From NCBI GenBank assembly GCA_019117185.1, contig DXAF01000035.1, positions 1 to 32,072 on the forward strand: a DNA stretch of 32,072 nt, given 5' to 3'. Made by a program: the position numbers and the translations under genes. The DNA is from Candidatus Limosilactobacillus intestinipullorum (GTDB lineage Bacteria; Bacillota; Bacilli; Lactobacillales; Lactobacillaceae). The notes under the pieces were generated by a model. That model ran no database searches, had not been told where the DNA came from, and saw only the letters and a list, made by a program, of their open reading frames with translations. Positions 11,831-31,440 of this stretch are shown here, one piece after another (the stretch's first letter is position 1; the number at the start of each line of letters is the position of its first letter).

Positions 11831-11847
11831 TGTCTTCGTTATAAAGC

Positions 11848-11939
11848 AAATTCCCGATAGGATTCACTGTGCAGTGAAGATGCCTTGTAACCGCAACTAC
11901 AAAACGTTTTTTAAGTTTCGACTAGAATATGGGGGAATT
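11848..11939 (+). promoter_or_regulatory. SMK box (SAM-III) riboswitch
   Basis: The leader contains the SMK core TTCCCGATAGGAT, a hairpin TTCACTG/CAGTGAA (11863-11878), then AGATGCCTTGTAACCG. Its AATTCCC (11849-11855) can pair with GGGAATT inside the metK Shine-Dalgarno GGGGGAATT (11931-11939). In the known mechanism SAM stabilises this pairing and hides the ribosome binding site, so metK translation falls when SAM is ample. About 37 bases between the core and the Shine-Dalgarno form the variable linker. The order, core bases and partner gene all fit, so I am confident. Confidence 0.93.
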
Positions 11940-11946
11940 AGAAAAG

Positions 11947-13176: not shown

Positions 13177-13199
13177 ACAATTAATATTTTGATCGTGAT

Positions 13200-13422
13200 A
13201 GAAGTAGTAGTTAATCTGCTGGCCGGCAGAGACCCGTTGGTGCTGTGAAACGGGGACCAGGGATTGACGAACTCATCTTGAAAGATTGCTGCTGAAGTTA
13301 GTAGGTAGCGACGTTGGTCCACGTTATGGCCCTAAGTGCTATGGGGGTTCCCATAGAAAACGGGTGGTACCGCGGATTGATTTTCGTCTCGTAGGAGCAA
13401 AGGGCTTCTGCGGGACTTTTTT
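13200..13422 (+). promoter_or_regulatory. T-box leader for leucyl-tRNA synthetase, specifier CUC (Leu)
   Basis: The stem I base pairs 13206-13217 with 13283-13293 (wobbles and one bulge). The specifier loop shows GAACTCA, so the likely codon is CTC (13272-13274), Leu. Stem III is CTATGGG/CCCATAG (13339-13356). The T-box core GGGTGGTACCGCGG (13362-13375) follows, and its TGGT fits the ACCA end of tRNA-Leu. A terminator hairpin (13386-13416) with a T-run completes it. Uncharged tRNA-Leu would stabilise the antiterminator and switch leuS on. Confidence 0.93.
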
Positions 13423-25583: not shown

Positions 25584-25642
25584 TTGCATGTCGGTCGGTT
25601 TTAGCTTAGTATTCTATTAATAACAATGTGAAGAGGATAAAA

Positions 25643-26662
25643 ATGGGTAAAAAAGTAACAATTCGCGATATTGCAAAAATGGCCGGCGTTTCAGTAACCA
25701 CTGTTTCACAGGTCCTCAATGGAAAGGGCAAGCGTTTCAGCAAGAGTACCCGGGAGCGGATCATCAAATTGCGTGACCAGTACCAATACGTCCCGGACTT
25801 CCACGCCCGTAGTTTAATTATGAAGGAAAACATTAATACCATCGGGGTCCTCGTCCCCAATGTTAGTGAGCCCTTCTTTGGTACCTTTGTGGAAGGGGTC
25901 CAGCAGGTTGCCCGTCAAGAAAAACTAATCCCGCTGATCTTCAGTGCCAACCGAGATCCCAAACTGGAGAAACAGTACCTTGAACAGATGGTGGAGCGCT
26001 CGATTGATGGCTTGATCATCGCCAGTGCCCGAATGACGACGGAGATGATTAACCAGGCCTTAATCAACCGGGATATCCCCTACATCCTGTTTGACCGGAA
26101 CTATGACCAGGAGGGGGCCCGGGTCCAGACCGATGACTACCACGGTGGTCAACTGGCGGCTAAGCACCTAGTAGAGTTAGGACACCAGCGCTGCCTCTAC
26201 TTGGGCGTAACAAATATTACTGAGAACTTCAAGCAACGGCTGGCCGGATTCACCAGTGTATTACAGGCCCATGGCCGTCACTTCGATGAAGCCAGTGACG
26301 TCTTACGGGCTGATTTAAGCCGCCGTGGTGGCTACCAGGCTGCCCAGGCGGTTGTTGATAGTGGTGCGACCGCGGTCTTCGCGGCTAATGATGACATGGC
26401 AATTGGCTTGTTGCGGGGCCTGCGTGAACTCAAGATCCGGGTGCCAGAAGATATTTCGGTGGTCGGCTATGATGATATTGCCTTAGACGAGTATGTTTAC
26501 CCGCAACTAACCACGATTCACCAGCCGATCTTTGACCTCGGGATTGGGGCAACCAAGATTTTGTTGGACCGGATCCATAACCAACACCGGGATGAAACAG
26601 TGGAGAAGTTCCCCGTCCGGCTCATTCGTCGGGAAAGTACCGGTCCGTGTCATATGGTATAG
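25643..26662 (+). CDS. rbsR: LacI-family regulator, probable ribose repressor
   Basis: A 339-aa LacI/GalR protein. The helix-turn-helix is TIRDIAKMAGVSVTTVSQVLNGK (about 5-27) and the hinge is SLIMKENINTIGVLVPN. A periplasmic-binding-protein-like sensor domain follows, ending GYDDIALDEYVYPQLTTIHQP. The next gene, 34 bases on, is ribokinase, so it probably represses ribose use. I chose the ATG at 25643 because an upstream GTG (25628) overlaps the AGAGGA ribosome binding site. No operator was recognised in its short upstream gap. Confidence 0.87.
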   Translation: MGKKVTIRDIAKMAGVSVTTVSQVLNGKGKRFSKSTRERIIKLRDQYQYVPDFHARSLIMKENINTIGVLVPNVSEPFFGTFVEGVQQVARQEKLIPLIFSANRDPKLEKQYLEQMVERSIDGLIIASARMTTEMINQALINRDIPYILFDRNYDQEGARVQTDDYHGGQLAAKHLVELGHQRCLYLGVTNITENFKQRLAGFTSVLQAHGRHFDEASDVLRADLSRRGGYQAAQAVVDSGATAVFAANDDMAIGLLRGLRELKIRVPEDISVVGYDDIALDEYVYPQLTTIHQPIFDLGIGATKILLDRIHNQHRDETVEKFPVRLIRRESTGPCHMV

Positions 26663-26696: not shown

Positions 26697-27608
26697 ATGA
26701 ATAAAGTGACAGTTGTGGGTAGTTTGAACGTTGATACAACGATGAAAATTAAACGAATGCCACTTCCTGGTGAAACCATTTCCACGTTAGGAAAGTCCAG
26801 CGCTGCTGGTGGAAAGGGTGCCAACCAGGCGGTTTCGGCTGCCCGGTCCGGTGCGCAAACCTTTTTTGTCGGCGAAGTCGGCAAGGACAGCGGTGGTGAG
26901 ATGATGTTAAATGACCTCCGTGAAAACGGCATTGATGTTTCCGGCATCCGTGAAAACGCCCAGGTGGGGACCGGGTCTGCAGCCATCCTGCTAGATGAAC
27001 ACGGTCAAAATAGTATTTTAGTTTACGGTGGGGCCAACCAACAATTAAGCGTTGATGACGTTAACGCCGCTAAAAAGCAGATTATGGAAGCTGACTTCGT
27101 GGTTGCCCAGTTTGAAACACCCCAGGCCGCAACCTTGCGGGCTTTTGAGCTGGCCAAGGAAAACGGGGTGACGACAATCCTTAACCCGGCACCGGCGCAG
27201 AAGATTGACCCCGCGGTCCTTAAGTTGACCGACTTGGTTATTCCAAACGAAACCGAAAGCCAGGCACTAACCGGGATCATCATCACGGATGAGACTTCAA
27301 TGCTGATGTCAGCGGCTAAGTTCGCGCAGATGGGGGTCCGCAACCTGATTATTACGGTGGGGGCCAAGGGCGCGTTCTACTGCACGCAAGACGGTTATAA
27401 CTTTATTCCAGCCTTTAAAGTCAACGCGGTTGATACGACTGCCGCGGGTGATACCTTTATTGGGGCCCTAGCTTCCCAATTAAAGCCCGACATGAGTAAT
27501 ATCGAAAAGGCCCTGGTTTACGCACAACGAGCCAGCTCATTAGCGGTGCAAAAGATGGGGGCGTTGCCATCAATCCCAACCAAGCAACAGGTTATTGCTG
27601 CTAGTTAA
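26697..27608 (+). CDS. rbsK: Ribokinase
   Basis: A 303-aa PfkB-family kinase converting ribose to ribose-5-phosphate. N-terminal GSLNVDTTMKIKRMPLPGET and GGKGANQAVSAAR (38-50) bind the sugar. The C-terminal DTTAAGDTFIGAL has the catalytic base Asp252, with AAGD in place of the common GAGD. The ATG follows GAGGAGGAAG. Ribose-5-phosphate would feed the phosphoketolase route. No ribose transporter (rbsU or ABC) or rbsD lies in this window. Confidence 0.94.
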   Translation: MNKVTVVGSLNVDTTMKIKRMPLPGETISTLGKSSAAGGKGANQAVSAARSGAQTFFVGEVGKDSGGEMMLNDLRENGIDVSGIRENAQVGTGSAAILLDEHGQNSILVYGGANQQLSVDDVNAAKKQIMEADFVVAQFETPQAATLRAFELAKENGVTTILNPAPAQKIDPAVLKLTDLVIPNETESQALTGIIITDETSMLMSAAKFAQMGVRNLIITVGAKGAFYCTQDGYNFIPAFKVNAVDTTAAGDTFIGALASQLKPDMSNIEKALVYAQRASSLAVQKMGALPSIPTKQQVIAAS

Positions 27609-27684: not shown

Positions 27685-27927
27685 ATGAAAGCAGAATATT
27701 TGATCAAGGTAATCCTGCCGCCCTTTGTTATTTTTGCCGTCCTAGTCGGATTGACGATTACTAAGGTAATTACGGGGTGGCTAATGTATGCCTTGTGGAT
27801 TGTGGGCTTTGTCGTGGCTAACCTAATTGTCACCAAGATTACCGCGAAGTGGAGCTACCAACGACGGCGGGCGATTCGACTAAAGGAGGAAGCGACAAAA
27901 AAACGCCATGAAAACTCAAAAGACTAA
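27685..27927 (+). CDS. Small membrane protein, 80 aa
   Basis: Two predicted membrane helices (about residues 7-27 and 32-50) are followed by a strongly basic and acidic cytoplasmic tail (WSYQRRRAIRLKEEATKKRHENSKD). The ATG follows GGAGGAATTAAG. Its last 20 bases overlap the CPBP protease gene, so the two are translationally coupled. The family is unknown to me. A role as partner or guard of the protease is inferred from the overlap only. Confidence 0.75.
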   Translation: MKAEYLIKVILPPFVIFAVLVGLTITKVITGWLMYALWIVGFVVANLIVTKITAKWSYQRRRAIRLKEEATKKRHENSKD

Positions 27928-28582
27928 GCTGGGCTCCTGGCTCTACCGGGTCGGCATTGTTGCACTGTTCTTCTTGCTGATTCAGGTGCCACCAGTGGCC
28001 GTAGCAATTGCCAACCGTCACCCCCATAACCAAGAGCTAGCGGTGGGCCTGGCAGTGATCTTTGTGGTGATCTTCTTATTTATCATTACCCGTGCACGGC
28101 GGCTTTGCCACCGCTATAACCAGCTTGCGGGGGGCGCGGTTAACCTGGGGCTGGTTTTGCTGGGCTATTTGACCTTAATAGTGGGGATGGCCGTCTTTGG
28201 GTGGTTGAACCAGTACTTCTTCCACCAGACGCAAACTGCTAATAACGAGATCATCCGCCAGTTACTTAACCATAACCGCATCATTACGGTCGTGTTTGTG
28301 CTTTCCTCGTTTACGCTGACGCCGGTGGCAGAAGAATTGATTTTCCGGGGACTATTAACCAACCTCTTCTTCCGTCCCAATGCACTGTGGTCGAAAATGG
28401 TGCTGTCGGGGATCGTCTTTTCACTGGCCCACACGAGTACGACGCTGGTGAGCTTCTTACTGTACTGCTTTATGGGGATGGTCCTAACGTACGTTTACCG
28501 GCAGTCAGGAAGCCTTAAAAACAGCATCTTGATTCATGGGATAAATAACTTTGTGGCCATTGCAATAATGCTTTTTCGATAA
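27908..28582 (+). CDS. CPBP-family intramembrane metalloprotease (Abi/CAAX-like)
   Basis: A 224-aa polytopic protein with the CPBP motifs: EELIFRGLL (Glu142-Glu143, Arg147), FSLAHTS (His175) and the late LIHGINN (His210, Asn213-Asn214). In lactic acid bacteria such proteins often sit in bacteriocin immunity loci, but no bacteriocin gene is seen here. Ribosome binding site AAAGGAGGAAG lies inside the preceding gene, about ten bases before the ATG. The ncRNA promoter follows. Confidence 0.88.
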   Translation: MKTQKTKLGSWLYRVGIVALFFLLIQVPPVAVAIANRHPHNQELAVGLAVIFVVIFLFIITRARRLCHRYNQLAGGAVNLGLVLLGYLTLIVGMAVFGWLNQYFFHQTQTANNEIIRQLLNHNRIITVVFVLSSFTLTPVAEELIFRGLLTNLFFRPNALWSKMVLSGIVFSLAHTSTTLVSFLLYCFMGMVLTYVYRQSGSLKNSILIHGINNFVAIAIMLFR

Positions 28583-28596
28583 GTTTTAATTTATAG

Positions 28597-28625
28597 TTGC
28601 AACCGCTTACAAAAGATGGTATATT
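28597..28625 (+). promoter_or_regulatory. Promoter with consensus cre (CcpA) box over the -35
   Basis: TTGCAA (28597-28602), exactly 17 bp, extended -10 TGG-TATATT (28620-28625). TTGCAACCGCTTACA (28597-28611) fits the cre consensus WTGNAANCGNWNNCW at every fixed position and covers the whole -35. In Gram-positives CcpA bound to such a site represses. Start would be near 28632. Confidence 0.8.
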
Positions 28626-28631
28626 AAAAGC

Positions 28632-28920
28632 GTGGAAGGAAAGAAGAAAAGAGAATCTGATCCGTCAGGCAGATCTCCCACTTAGTAGAGTGCCGAAGGA
28701 AGTTATGGAGTAGGCAGAAGCAACGTAAGTGTGATCAGAAATATCAATTAATTTTTTACAATGAATCGGTCACCAGGGTGCGCTTGAACGGGCGGTATAT
28801 AAATAGCGACTTTGCGGAAGTTTAGAATCAAAGAATACTTAATTAATCAGTTCCAGAGCAAAGTGGCAAGATTCCTTCCGTATAACAAACAGGTCCAGTC
28901 GTTTGACTGGGCCTGTTTGT
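28632..28920 (+). ncRNA. Structured small RNA of about 290 nt, family unassigned
   Basis: The predicted start lies at GTGGAAGGAA. GGAAGGAA (28634-28641) pairs with TTCCTTCC (28872-28879) as a closing stem around about 230 nt. Local hairpins include CTGA-TCCG-TCAG (28657-28668), CACT/AGTG (28679-28692) and ACTT/AAGT (28809-28821). CTGATC (28657) could instead pair with GATCAG (28733). A terminator hairpin AACAAACAGG...CCTGTTTGTT spans 28884-28920. No ORF of note is present. I considered 6S RNA because of the long closed form, but could not match it. RNase P, tmRNA, SRP and the common riboswitches do not fit. Confidence 0.65.
28884..28920 (+). terminator. Terminator hairpin of the small RNA
   Basis: 17-bp stem: AACAAACAGGTCCAGTC / GACTGGGCCTGTTTGTT with one wobble and a GTTT loop. 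The U-rich part is contained in the 3' arm rather than in a separate tract. Immediately downstream TGT-TATAAT (28918-28926) is an extended -10 for the next gene. Confidence 0.75.
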
Positions 28921-28951
28921 TATAATGAATAAATATAAAGGAGTGGGGAAA

Positions 28952-29230
28952 ATGTTTTTAACAACGGAGGCTTATCCACAAGCGCACCGGATTTTAGGAA
29001 TCGTGAATGCCACCAGTCACCTGATGCTGCCGAGTGAGGCGATTGATTCTTTTGAGTCGATGGACCAGCTTTTTAGTGCAGTGGAGGAAAAACTCAAGGA
29101 ACGGGCCGCAGCGAAGGGCGCCGATGGGGTCGTCAACGTACGGTTTAATACCGACGTGGCCAACGTCCAAGTGGCGCCTAAGTTCTTGGTATTGACGGGT
29201 TACGGGACCATGATTCAGCTGATTAAATAA
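28952..29230 (+). CDS. YbjQ/UPF0145-like small protein
   Basis: A 92-aa protein. Pattern: TEAYPQAHRILGIVNATSHLM, a helix EEKLKERAAAKGADGVVNVRF, and a final strand LVLTGYGTMIQL. This fits the YbjQ (heavy-metal-binding-like, UPF0145) fold, whose biochemical role is not settled. I chose the ATG at 28952, which has AAAGGAGTGGGG upstream. The earlier ATG at 28925 overlaps the -10. The promoter is the extended -10 at 28918-28926. Confidence 0.75.
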   Translation: MFLTTEAYPQAHRILGIVNATSHLMLPSEAIDSFESMDQLFSAVEEKLKERAAAKGADGVVNVRFNTDVANVQVAPKFLVLTGYGTMIQLIK

Positions 29231-30471: not shown

Positions 30472-31440
30472 TTAGAAAAAAGGTGAAAGTTGTTCTTCTG
30501 TGACATGACTCAAGAATACTTCTAATGGTGTACGATAATTAAGAGATTTTCGTGGGATATTGTTGCGACAATGCATTAGCTGAGTGACTAGTTCGTCTGG
30601 TAAATCGCGAAAATCTAGCTTTTTACTAAGACCATCACGATGCAAGAGGCCGTTATTATTTTCGTTTAACCCTCGTTGATTGGGAGCACCGACTTCCGCA
30701 AAATAGGTGTGAAGATCATACTTATTGGCTATTTCTCGCCATCCAGCAAATTCTTTTCCGTTATCAAAAGTAATTGATTTAACAAAGTGACGTGGCAGTT
30801 TAGCGAGCCATTGATCAAGCTGGCGATTCACTGCTTCGTCTGTTTTATGATGAATATTAAGGACAATCATTACTTTGGATTGTCGCTCTACTAGCGTCAT
30901 TACCGCTCCGCGGTGAGCTTTACCTTGAACTGTATCAGCTTCAAAGTGCCCAAATTCATGTTGGTAATGCGGAAAATCACGATATCGTTGATAGATACTG
31001 CGTCCTAATTGGCCAGCTTTACCACGATGTTCCACATAGCCATTGGGATGGCGTTTTCCTTTCATCGGTAGCTGTTTAACGGAAAAGCCATACTGATTGC
31101 GGGCAAACATGCGATAAAGGGTGCGCATACTGCAGCTAATTGGGTGTTCATGACGACCAATAATAGTATCAGGAGTCCAACCTGCCTTGATTTGCGCATG
31201 GATATAGTTAACTTCGATAGTTCGCAGTTGGGTCTGCTTCCGACCACAACGACGCTTATGTCGCTGATAAGTCTGAAGATATTGGTCGATGGTTTTACCG
31301 TCGTTGAGGAAACGATAAACACGATAGATGGTTTCTTGACTACGCTGAAGTAATTTAGCAGCCCGATAAGCTTTAATACCTTGATACCAAAAATCAGCTA
31401 TGAGAGTTAATTCACGTGTGGTAAGATGTTTATAGGTCAT
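30472..31440 (-). CDS. IS30-family transposase
   Basis: A 322-aa transposase. The N-terminal helix-turn-helix region is LTTRELTLIADFWYQGIKAYRAAKLL, with a second one near 68-115. The DDE catalytic domain has Asp169 (FEADTVQG), Asp226 (TFDNGKEF) and Glu260 (GLNENNNGLL), exactly the IS30 layout, so it looks intact. The ATG has AAAGG about ten bases upstream. The start codon lies in the 3' arm of a foldback hairpin described separately. Confidence 0.95.
   Translation of the reverse strand: MTYKHLTTRELTLIADFWYQGIKAYRAAKLLQRSQETIYRVYRFLNDGKTIDQYLQTYQRHKRRCGRKQTQLRTIEVNYIHAQIKAGWTPDTIIGRHEHPISCSMRTLYRMFARNQYGFSVKQLPMKGKRHPNGYVEHRGKAGQLGRSIYQRYRDFPHYQHEFGHFEADTVQGKAHRGAVMTLVERQSKVMIVLNIHHKTDEAVNRQLDQWLAKLPRHFVKSITFDNGKEFAGWREIANKYDLHTYFAEVGAPNQRGLNENNNGLLHRDGLSKKLDFRDLPDELVTQLMHCRNNIPRKSLNYRTPLEVFLSHVTEEQLSPFF

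Follow-up and report, generated by a model that had tools for sequence, protein, structure and literature searches.

Between two protein-coding genes of Candidatus Limosilactobacillus intestinipullorum lies the gene of a structured RNA which we firmly regard as belonging to a new RNA family, shared by Limosilactobacillus and Paucilactobacillus, and which is likely, judging from a predicted cre operator on its promoter, to be controlled by CcpA. The window (the whole stretch of DNA analysed, 32,072 nucleotides) comes from a genome of 1.74 Mb that is 90.8% complete (G000), and the RNA gene occupies positions 28597–28924 of it, between a CPBP/Rce1-like membrane protease gene (PF02517) and a YbjQ-like gene. 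The original prediction of a discrete structured RNA gene is borne out, with promoter, cre, closing stem (P1), branched interior and hairpin all present, and the RNA is conserved with covariation. A covariance search of the window against Rfam, including the 6S RNA family RF00013, matched the RNA to no family, housekeeping RNAs among them, either at the gathering cut-off or at E-values up to 10.

Promoter, operator and structure of the RNA

The features of the locus are listed here with window coordinates.

25628–26662: LacI-family regulator gene, 5' of the gap
26697–27608: PfkB-type kinase gene, 5' of the gap
27908–28582: CPBP/Rce1-like membrane protease gene, directly 5' of the gap
28597–28625, plus strand: promoter, with -35 TTGCAA (28597–28602), 17-nt spacer and extended -10 TGG-TATATT (28617–28625); kept in 43 distinct promoters
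28597–28611, plus strand: cre (predicted CcpA operator) TTGCAACCGCTTACA, covering the -35; strict consensus, 0 mismatches
28630–28920, plus strand: putative RNA transcript of about 290 nt, its start (28630–28632) and its end (near 28920) placed from the distance to the -10, P1 and the hairpin
28634–28641, plus strand: P1 closing stem, 5' strand GGAAGGAA, inside a purine tract once read as Shine-Dalgarno (SD)-like; partner 28872–28879; covaries
28651–28677, plus strand: P1a, a variable 5' hairpin seen by eye in the alignment; gapped in L021 and L023–L029
28686–28690, plus strand: P2, 5' strand; partner 28783–28787; double-sided changes at 5/5 pairs
28691–28716, plus strand: P2a hairpin, UGCC (28691–28694) with GGCA (28713–28716); covariation
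28717–28729, plus strand: conserved linker, family consensus AGNAGCARCGTAAG; near-invariant columns
28731–28773, plus strand: P3 hairpin, GUGAUC (28731–28736) with GGUCAC (28768–28773); double-sided changes at 4/6 pairs
28774–28783, plus strand: conserved joining segment CAGGGTGCGC; near-invariant columns
28783–28787, plus strand: P2, 3' strand
28806–28867, plus strand: P4 arm, GC-ACUUUGC-GGAA (28806–28819) with UUCC-GCAAAGU-GC (28851–28867)
28872–28879, plus strand: P1 closing stem, 3' strand TTCCTTCC, the tract once read as anti-SD-like
28881–28924, plus strand: terminator hairpin, 20 bp
28952: start of the YbjQ-like gene, 3' of the gap, placed by alignment with relatives

The gap between the flanking genes had been given as 342 bp, which is right if counted from the ATG at 28925, but alignment with relatives places the start of ybjQ at 28952 and makes the gap 369 bp. 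An extended -10, TGT-TATAAT, lies at 28918–28926 inside the terminator tail ahead of ybjQ and could be a promoter of that gene's own; by eye, TATAAT-like hexamers also follow the terminator in several relatives.

The promoter of the RNA, described earlier as near-ideal, has the 17-nt spacer and the extended -10, but its -35 and -10 match only 9 of 12 consensus positions. The cre is as predicted, fitting all fixed consensus positions and covering the -35. It is the only strict cre in the window, the two scan matches being a single palindromic site read on both strands; shuffled windows hold a mean of 0.42 strict matches each, with at least two matches in 11 of 100 shuffles. Across the 43 distinct promoters the fixed cre positions, including those within the spacer, carry 1.48–2 bits each, and the five positions separating the cre from the TG carry 0.29–1.18 bits. 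A strict cre covers the -35 in 38 of 46 copies across Limosilactobacillus and Paucilactobacillus, and all 46 fit a looser pattern, composed after the sequences were seen. From the position of this site we would expect the RNA to be off, probably, while good sugars are plentiful.

The closing stem, predicted to surround about 230 nt, was confirmed: the 8 bp of GGAAGGAA and TTCCTTCC enclose 230 nt of branched interior, and 7–8 of the 8 pairs are retained in 45/45 copies examined (the script picked the best-pairing 3' candidate). Pair 5 is G-C in 36 copies and A-U in nine, and pair 8 is A-U in 21, C-G in seven, U-A in one and unpaired in 16. For the interior, 94.4% of cells are paired over 28 pairs in 39 aligned sequences, and double-sided changes occur at 16 of these pairs compared with 9.4 in shuffles; neither figure was reached by any of 500 shuffles, and shifting the partner by one column lowers pairing to 39–44%. 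It should be noted that this alignment leans towards the tested pairs because the model to which it was fitted already held most of them (P2a excepted), and that related copies are not independent. A MAFFT alignment of 16 sequences, most of them divergent, shows double-sided changes at 13 of the 18 pairs that had been proposed from these same sequences.

Among the individual helices, P2a is the weakest, with 80% of cells paired in the 39-sequence alignment, where its outer pair is poorly aligned, and 89% in the MAFFT alignment. P4 has five of seven central pairs invariant and 96–99% of cells paired, and P2 contains one mismatch in the window copy. Across the two genera, hardly any variation is seen in the linker AGNAGCARCGTAAG or in the segment CAGSGTGCRC. 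A hairpin inside the core suggested by RNAalifold was replaced by P2a, which covaries, and a GAAUC/GAUUC pseudoknot was dropped by eye, GAAUC being absent from Paucilactobacillus and GAUUC overlapping P1. The reading of the locus as a small protein gene was also dropped by eye because indels between copies break the frame.

Folding energy for the entire stretch gives z = -4.7, due to the terminator hairpin, and the body alone is no more stable than shuffles (z = -0.84, with 42/200 as good). As the body is ordinary in this respect we abandoned folding energy as evidence, and the signal above chance is conservation and covariation. The predicted hairpin terminator is present as a 20-bp hairpin, and a terminator-like hairpin occurs within 90 nt 3' of P1 in 39/45 copies, compared with 4.5 in shuffles. 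A terminator scan of the window did not list the 28881–28924 hairpin as a plus-strand terminator; its T-rich tail belongs to the stem.

Distribution and genomic neighbourhoods

A BLAST search using the gap as query matched 41 of 95 genomes, made up of 40 of the 50 Limosilactobacillus genomes (the source genome included) and one genome of another genus (G052); some matches scarcely exceeded the promoter, and for these the RNA itself was confirmed with covariance models. A lack of conservation among relatives, which would have told against the original prediction, was not found. The RNA is also present in all seven Paucilactobacillus genomes. Two covariance models, R1 and R2, each found the RNA in 27 of 397 genomes of the family, confined to two of 40 genera; R1 gave a single match in each of its 27 (best six candidates per genome), and R2 also found the RNA in three of 295 genomes of the order. 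No genus beyond Limosilactobacillus and Paucilactobacillus gave the RNA in these searches; scoring was limited to the top 6, 8 or 11 candidates of each genome, so that a miss is weak evidence, and 18 genomes were rechecked with 150 candidates each. The window copy scores 70.9 bits with R2, from which it is absent, and is among the rows that build R1. A core-linker pattern, run against a collection of 84,980 species with one genome each, matched 33 times, always in the same two genera, and had no match in IMG/VR. We found no description of the RNA in Limosilactobacillus among the matches listed in a search of open-licence PMC titles and abstract openings.

Ten of the 50 Limosilactobacillus genomes are without the RNA. 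Two of these (G001 and G046, 78% and 85% complete) have neither the RNA nor the CPBP neighbour, and seven (G008, G009, G018, G028, G030, G043 and G049) have a CPBP homologue and no RNA even with lax filters, which look like true absences; by eye, what appears to be folB comes next in five of these seven. In the record of G017 (L135), rated 100% complete, the CPBP stop, the ybjQ start and a tRNA abut without intergenic DNA. This looks like a concatenation of genes, a trap for presence and absence counts, and the absence of the RNA there is uninformative because the intergenic DNA is missing at the locus. A decaying copy was recognised by eye in G027 (L044): it retains P1 but has no promoter or cre, and its P3 and core are damaged. 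The loss of its promoter and part of its core indicates that the RNA is dispensable at least there. L044 was left out of the promoter, P1 and terminator counts, L015 (cut by a contig end) out of the P1 and terminator counts, and L002 (a reverse-strand match to the terminator) out of all counts; alignment A1 is without L004, L015, L020 and L030, and A2 is without these and some near-identical rows.

The surroundings of the gene change between species. In 33 named loci, some with short flanks, the CPBP gene lies 5' of the RNA in 29 (1.3–1.9 kb away in three of them) and ybjQ lies 3' in 15. We did not find ybjQ downstream in the remaining 18, which include L. mucosae, L. coleohominis, L. oris, L. 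frumenti and all five Paucilactobacillus loci, though downstream flanks are shorter than 300 nt at some loci (e.g. L101, L106 and L115). The RNA of Paucilactobacillus follows an α-acetolactate decarboxylase gene in L108 (by Pfam) and in L101 and L112 (by eye), a ribose-type ABC transporter in L096 (by eye) and a phospholipase-D-type gene in L118. A cis-acting leader or attenuator of ybjQ would account for the 15 loci where this gene is next, but the constant link to one downstream gene expected of a riboswitch or attenuator leader is not seen among the 33, and the RNA ends in a terminator-like hairpin; we consider such a role highly improbable. As the downstream gene varies, the RNA probably acts in trans.

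Relationship to 6S RNA, enterococcal RNAs and similar units in other genera

A known parallel for the promoter is 6S RNA, and the possibility that the RNA is a diverged 6S had two points in its favour: cre sites cover the -35 of 6S genes in about a third of lactic acid bacterial species, where they are read as repressing (PMC8414754), and our first scans found RF00013 in 51 of 95 genomes with the source genome not among them. RF00013 did not match the locus of the RNA, however, and the genome's 6S was then located elsewhere, at L134:1720–1908 on contig C48, using the rarA–6S–usp region of G021 as query; it has 82% identity to the G021 sequence over the RNA region. This 6S scores 44.0 bits compared with the Rfam cut-off of 46.4, so that routine annotation would miss it. 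Both RNAs also coexist in seven genomes (G004, G006, G007, G021, G027 with its decayed copy, G029 and G048). Unlike the RNA described here, the 6S of lactic acid bacteria is a rod with a central bubble, usually found between rarA and usp (named by eye in our sequences), and the window RNA has CPBP and YbjQ-like neighbours instead. The separate locus and the coexistence in seven genomes refute a 6S identity, to which we attach a negligible probability. We note that RF00013 matched at an E-value of 0.001 in only 12 of the 50 Limosilactobacillus genomes.

Three further genera of the family, and one genome from another family, have RNAs on the same general plan, in which a cre-like site covers the -35 and a closing stem and terminator frame a different interior. 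The BLAST match in G052 stands at the head of an RNA some 365 nt long that has a cre, TGG-TATATT, a GACGTGG start, a closing stem and a terminator. A search with this RNA matched 41 of 199 genomes, 35 of them of genus g4, in which at least one genome (G130) is without a match. The g4 RNAs (L144–L174 and L182–L185; e.g. L144:1926–2297) measure about 305–365 nt in three cases, and resemble the window RNA in the cre-like promoter, the GTGG start, the closing stem and the terminator; in the 29 of 30 loci where the start could be placed, a looser cre-like site covers the -35 in all 29 and a strict cre in eight. They differ from it in their interior (the best R2 score is 4.8 bits, for L144) and are often in tandem, with two, two and three copies in L182, L183 and L184. 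Amongst the six matches outside g4, that in G041 is the Limosilactobacillus RNA, those in G131 and G155, in or beside coding genes, were rejected as chance, and those in G173, G166 and G092 are noncoding units with a strict cre and a stem closing before the terminator. The unit in G173 (L180, genus g43) is 559 nt by the script's cut, that in G166 (L181, genus g35) is 853 nt and lies 3' of an HMG-CoA synthase gene, as in G052, and that in G092 (L177, of another family) is 338 nt.

In 11 of 12 representatives the 5' end pairs with the 3' end better than with any interior window (in the exception, g35, 22 of 763 windows are as good), and when the ends were shuffled the observed score was reached in 5–669 of 5000 cases, the weakest results coming from the L. 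reuteri form (267) and above all from G092 (669); a positive result is favoured by the script, which trimmed the 3' end where the stem was expected. The first 16 transcribed bases of the g35 RNA, of which the BLAST span includes only one, resemble those of the Limosilactobacillus–Paucilactobacillus RNAs, with 0/20000 shuffles as good at the same offset and 2/20000 as the best of four. The corresponding resemblances of g43 (30/20000) and g4 (31 and 73/20000) are not independent because the BLAST matches covered those bases, and the start of L177 is not similar to the lactobacillar RNAs (6262/20000). Between groups, the interiors share no more 7- or 8-mers than shuffles do.

L177 links this plan to the enterococci. 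When ten divergent relatives of the RNA, eight g4 loci and four further loci were compared with Rfam, the g4 loci gave no meaningful match, and the only one for this type of RNA was that of L177 with RF02639 (EF0869_EF0870, also known as Ref19C, of Enterococcus faecalis), spanning model positions 1–474 with E-values of 1.8e-7 and 9.4e-9 at 38.7 bits, far below the cut-off of 533 bits. L177, the relative of the enterococcal RNAs whose promoter was read here, has a strict cre on its -35 (TTGTAAACGATTACA) and lies between a cation ATPase gene and queA (by Pfam); the same two genes are the neighbours of Ern0160 of E. faecium (PMC12870237). In the window RNA, as in the RF02639 model, a stem joins the 5' end to the segment that directly precedes the terminator-like hairpin, but the window RNA has a shorter, unrelated interior and other neighbours than queA and the cation ATPase gene. 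As the window (28500–29000) did not match RF02639 at E-values up to 10, we have not filed the RNA as a member of that family; a design in common is what the two have, and membership is not proven. Common descent with Ref19C and Ern0160 is possible, going by promoter, closing stem and terminator alone.

EF0869_EF0870 is 474 nt long by RACE and is seen on Northern blots only after 24 h of starvation (PMC3166299), an expression that would fit release from CcpA. Ern0160 is a stand-alone sRNA of 362–370 nt that is abundant and appears late in growth; as sRNA_0160 it reached 271,255 normalised counts, with late accumulation and an 11-fold fall with daptomycin (PMC5593968). It represses two LysM mRNAs by a 13-nt pairing inside the open reading frame, and its overexpression lowers carbohydrate transport genes (PMC12870237). 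The word CcpA is absent from the main texts of PMC12870237, PMC8631354, PMC5593968 and PMC3166299, and CcpA control of Ref19C and Ern0160, if true, would be a link not made there.

These likenesses suggest, tentatively, an order-wide class of catabolite-controlled RNAs in which the promoter under its cre, the GGAAGGGAU-like 5' strand, the closing stem and the terminator are kept while the interior of RNAs of about 220–850 nt is rebuilt in each genus, sometimes in tandem, with Ref19C and Ern0160 as enterococcal members that would themselves be under CcpA. We rate this as possible but somewhat short of probable because the g43 result is not independent. If true, it would connect sRNAs from two enterococcal species, account through one known switch, CcpA, for their appearance late in growth or in starvation, and pose the question of why promoter, closing stem and terminator persist while the interior is replaced.

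Possible function

Trans-acting RNA control is little charted in lactobacilli, most of which are not known to have Hfq. A direct and testable way in is offered by this conserved RNA of L. reuteri, L. mucosae, L. oris and related species, where the main sugar regulator probably controls it. We think it reasonably probable that the RNA is a stand-alone, P1-closed molecule which is repressed by CcpA, made when the preferred sugar runs out and active in trans. While that sugar is present, CcpA with HPr-Ser-P would occupy the cre, cover the -35 and block transcription, and the RNA would be made once the sugar is exhausted. P1 should give it a long life by joining its first bases to those just before the terminator, and the junction of P2a, the nearly invariant linker and P3 that P2 encloses, with P4 as a second conserved arm, presumably holds a partner, be it protein or RNA. 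Its targets in trans would most likely be mRNAs for sugar transport or cell-surface functions, as with Ern0160. Action on mRNAs is our best guess by analogy, and a trans-acting regulator is plausible because the like-built enterococcal RNAs include one that pairs with mRNAs (as PMC12870237 describes for Ern0160). Transcription, CcpA binding, direction of control, stability, partner and targets are all what we infer from these features and likenesses, and the strongly conserved junction sequence, which is unlike a simple antisense sRNA, counts against the proposal.

The original prediction of a sugar-controlled regulator acting on mRNAs thus stands in part: two genera retain the cre over the -35, CcpA is the putative protein that binds it, and a trans-acting role is plausible. 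What does not stand is the view that the purine tract and UUCCUUCC are free elements resembling an SD and an anti-SD, since both are strands of the covarying P1 and change together. The letters of the GGAAGGA and UUCCUUCC tracts do resemble such elements, but the tracts are able to pair with each other in 45/45 copies examined, and it is very improbable that they work on mRNAs or ribosomes in this way. A role mainly in protein binding, by sequestration or as the scaffold of an RNP with the P2a–linker–P3 junction as the site, is a more serious alternative to mRNA pairing. The most conserved positions are in the unpaired junction common to both genera, in Paucilactobacillus a C-rich stretch in the 5' domain could not be made out by eye, and Ern0160 is found partly in heavy gradient fractions of E. 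faecium; however, Ern0160 did not migrate together with S1, cold-shock or Khp proteins and was shown to pair with mRNAs (PMC12870237), and we regard protein binding as the main role as possible but doubtful.

The operator could also serve the neighbouring RbsR-like regulator of the LacI family, in place of CcpA or together with it. Proteins of this family bind palindromes centred on CG and might use this one, and an RbsR-like gene with at least 47% identity lies 0.8–3.2 kb upstream in 17 of the 33 named loci, with no rbsK match beside it in ten of the 17. Against this, no RbsR was found at an E-value of 1e-10 in the 2.3–7.7 kb upstream of Paucilactobacillus L096, L101, L108 and L112, where the site is kept, and the DNA upstream of L118 gives a match of only 28%. 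The same type of site also occurs on the RNAs of other genera in other neighbourhoods, and a second full cre-core match was not found in the window; control by this regulator is unlikely, and CcpA remains the candidate we prefer.

Elsewhere in the window, Rfam identified a SAM-III riboswitch (11834–11946) and a T-box leader (13183–13394), both ordinary, which by eye precede metK and leuS. Past the YbjQ region there is a transposase-like open reading frame on the minus strand (30472–31440), with a Pfam rve integrase core and, by eye, an IS30-like appearance.
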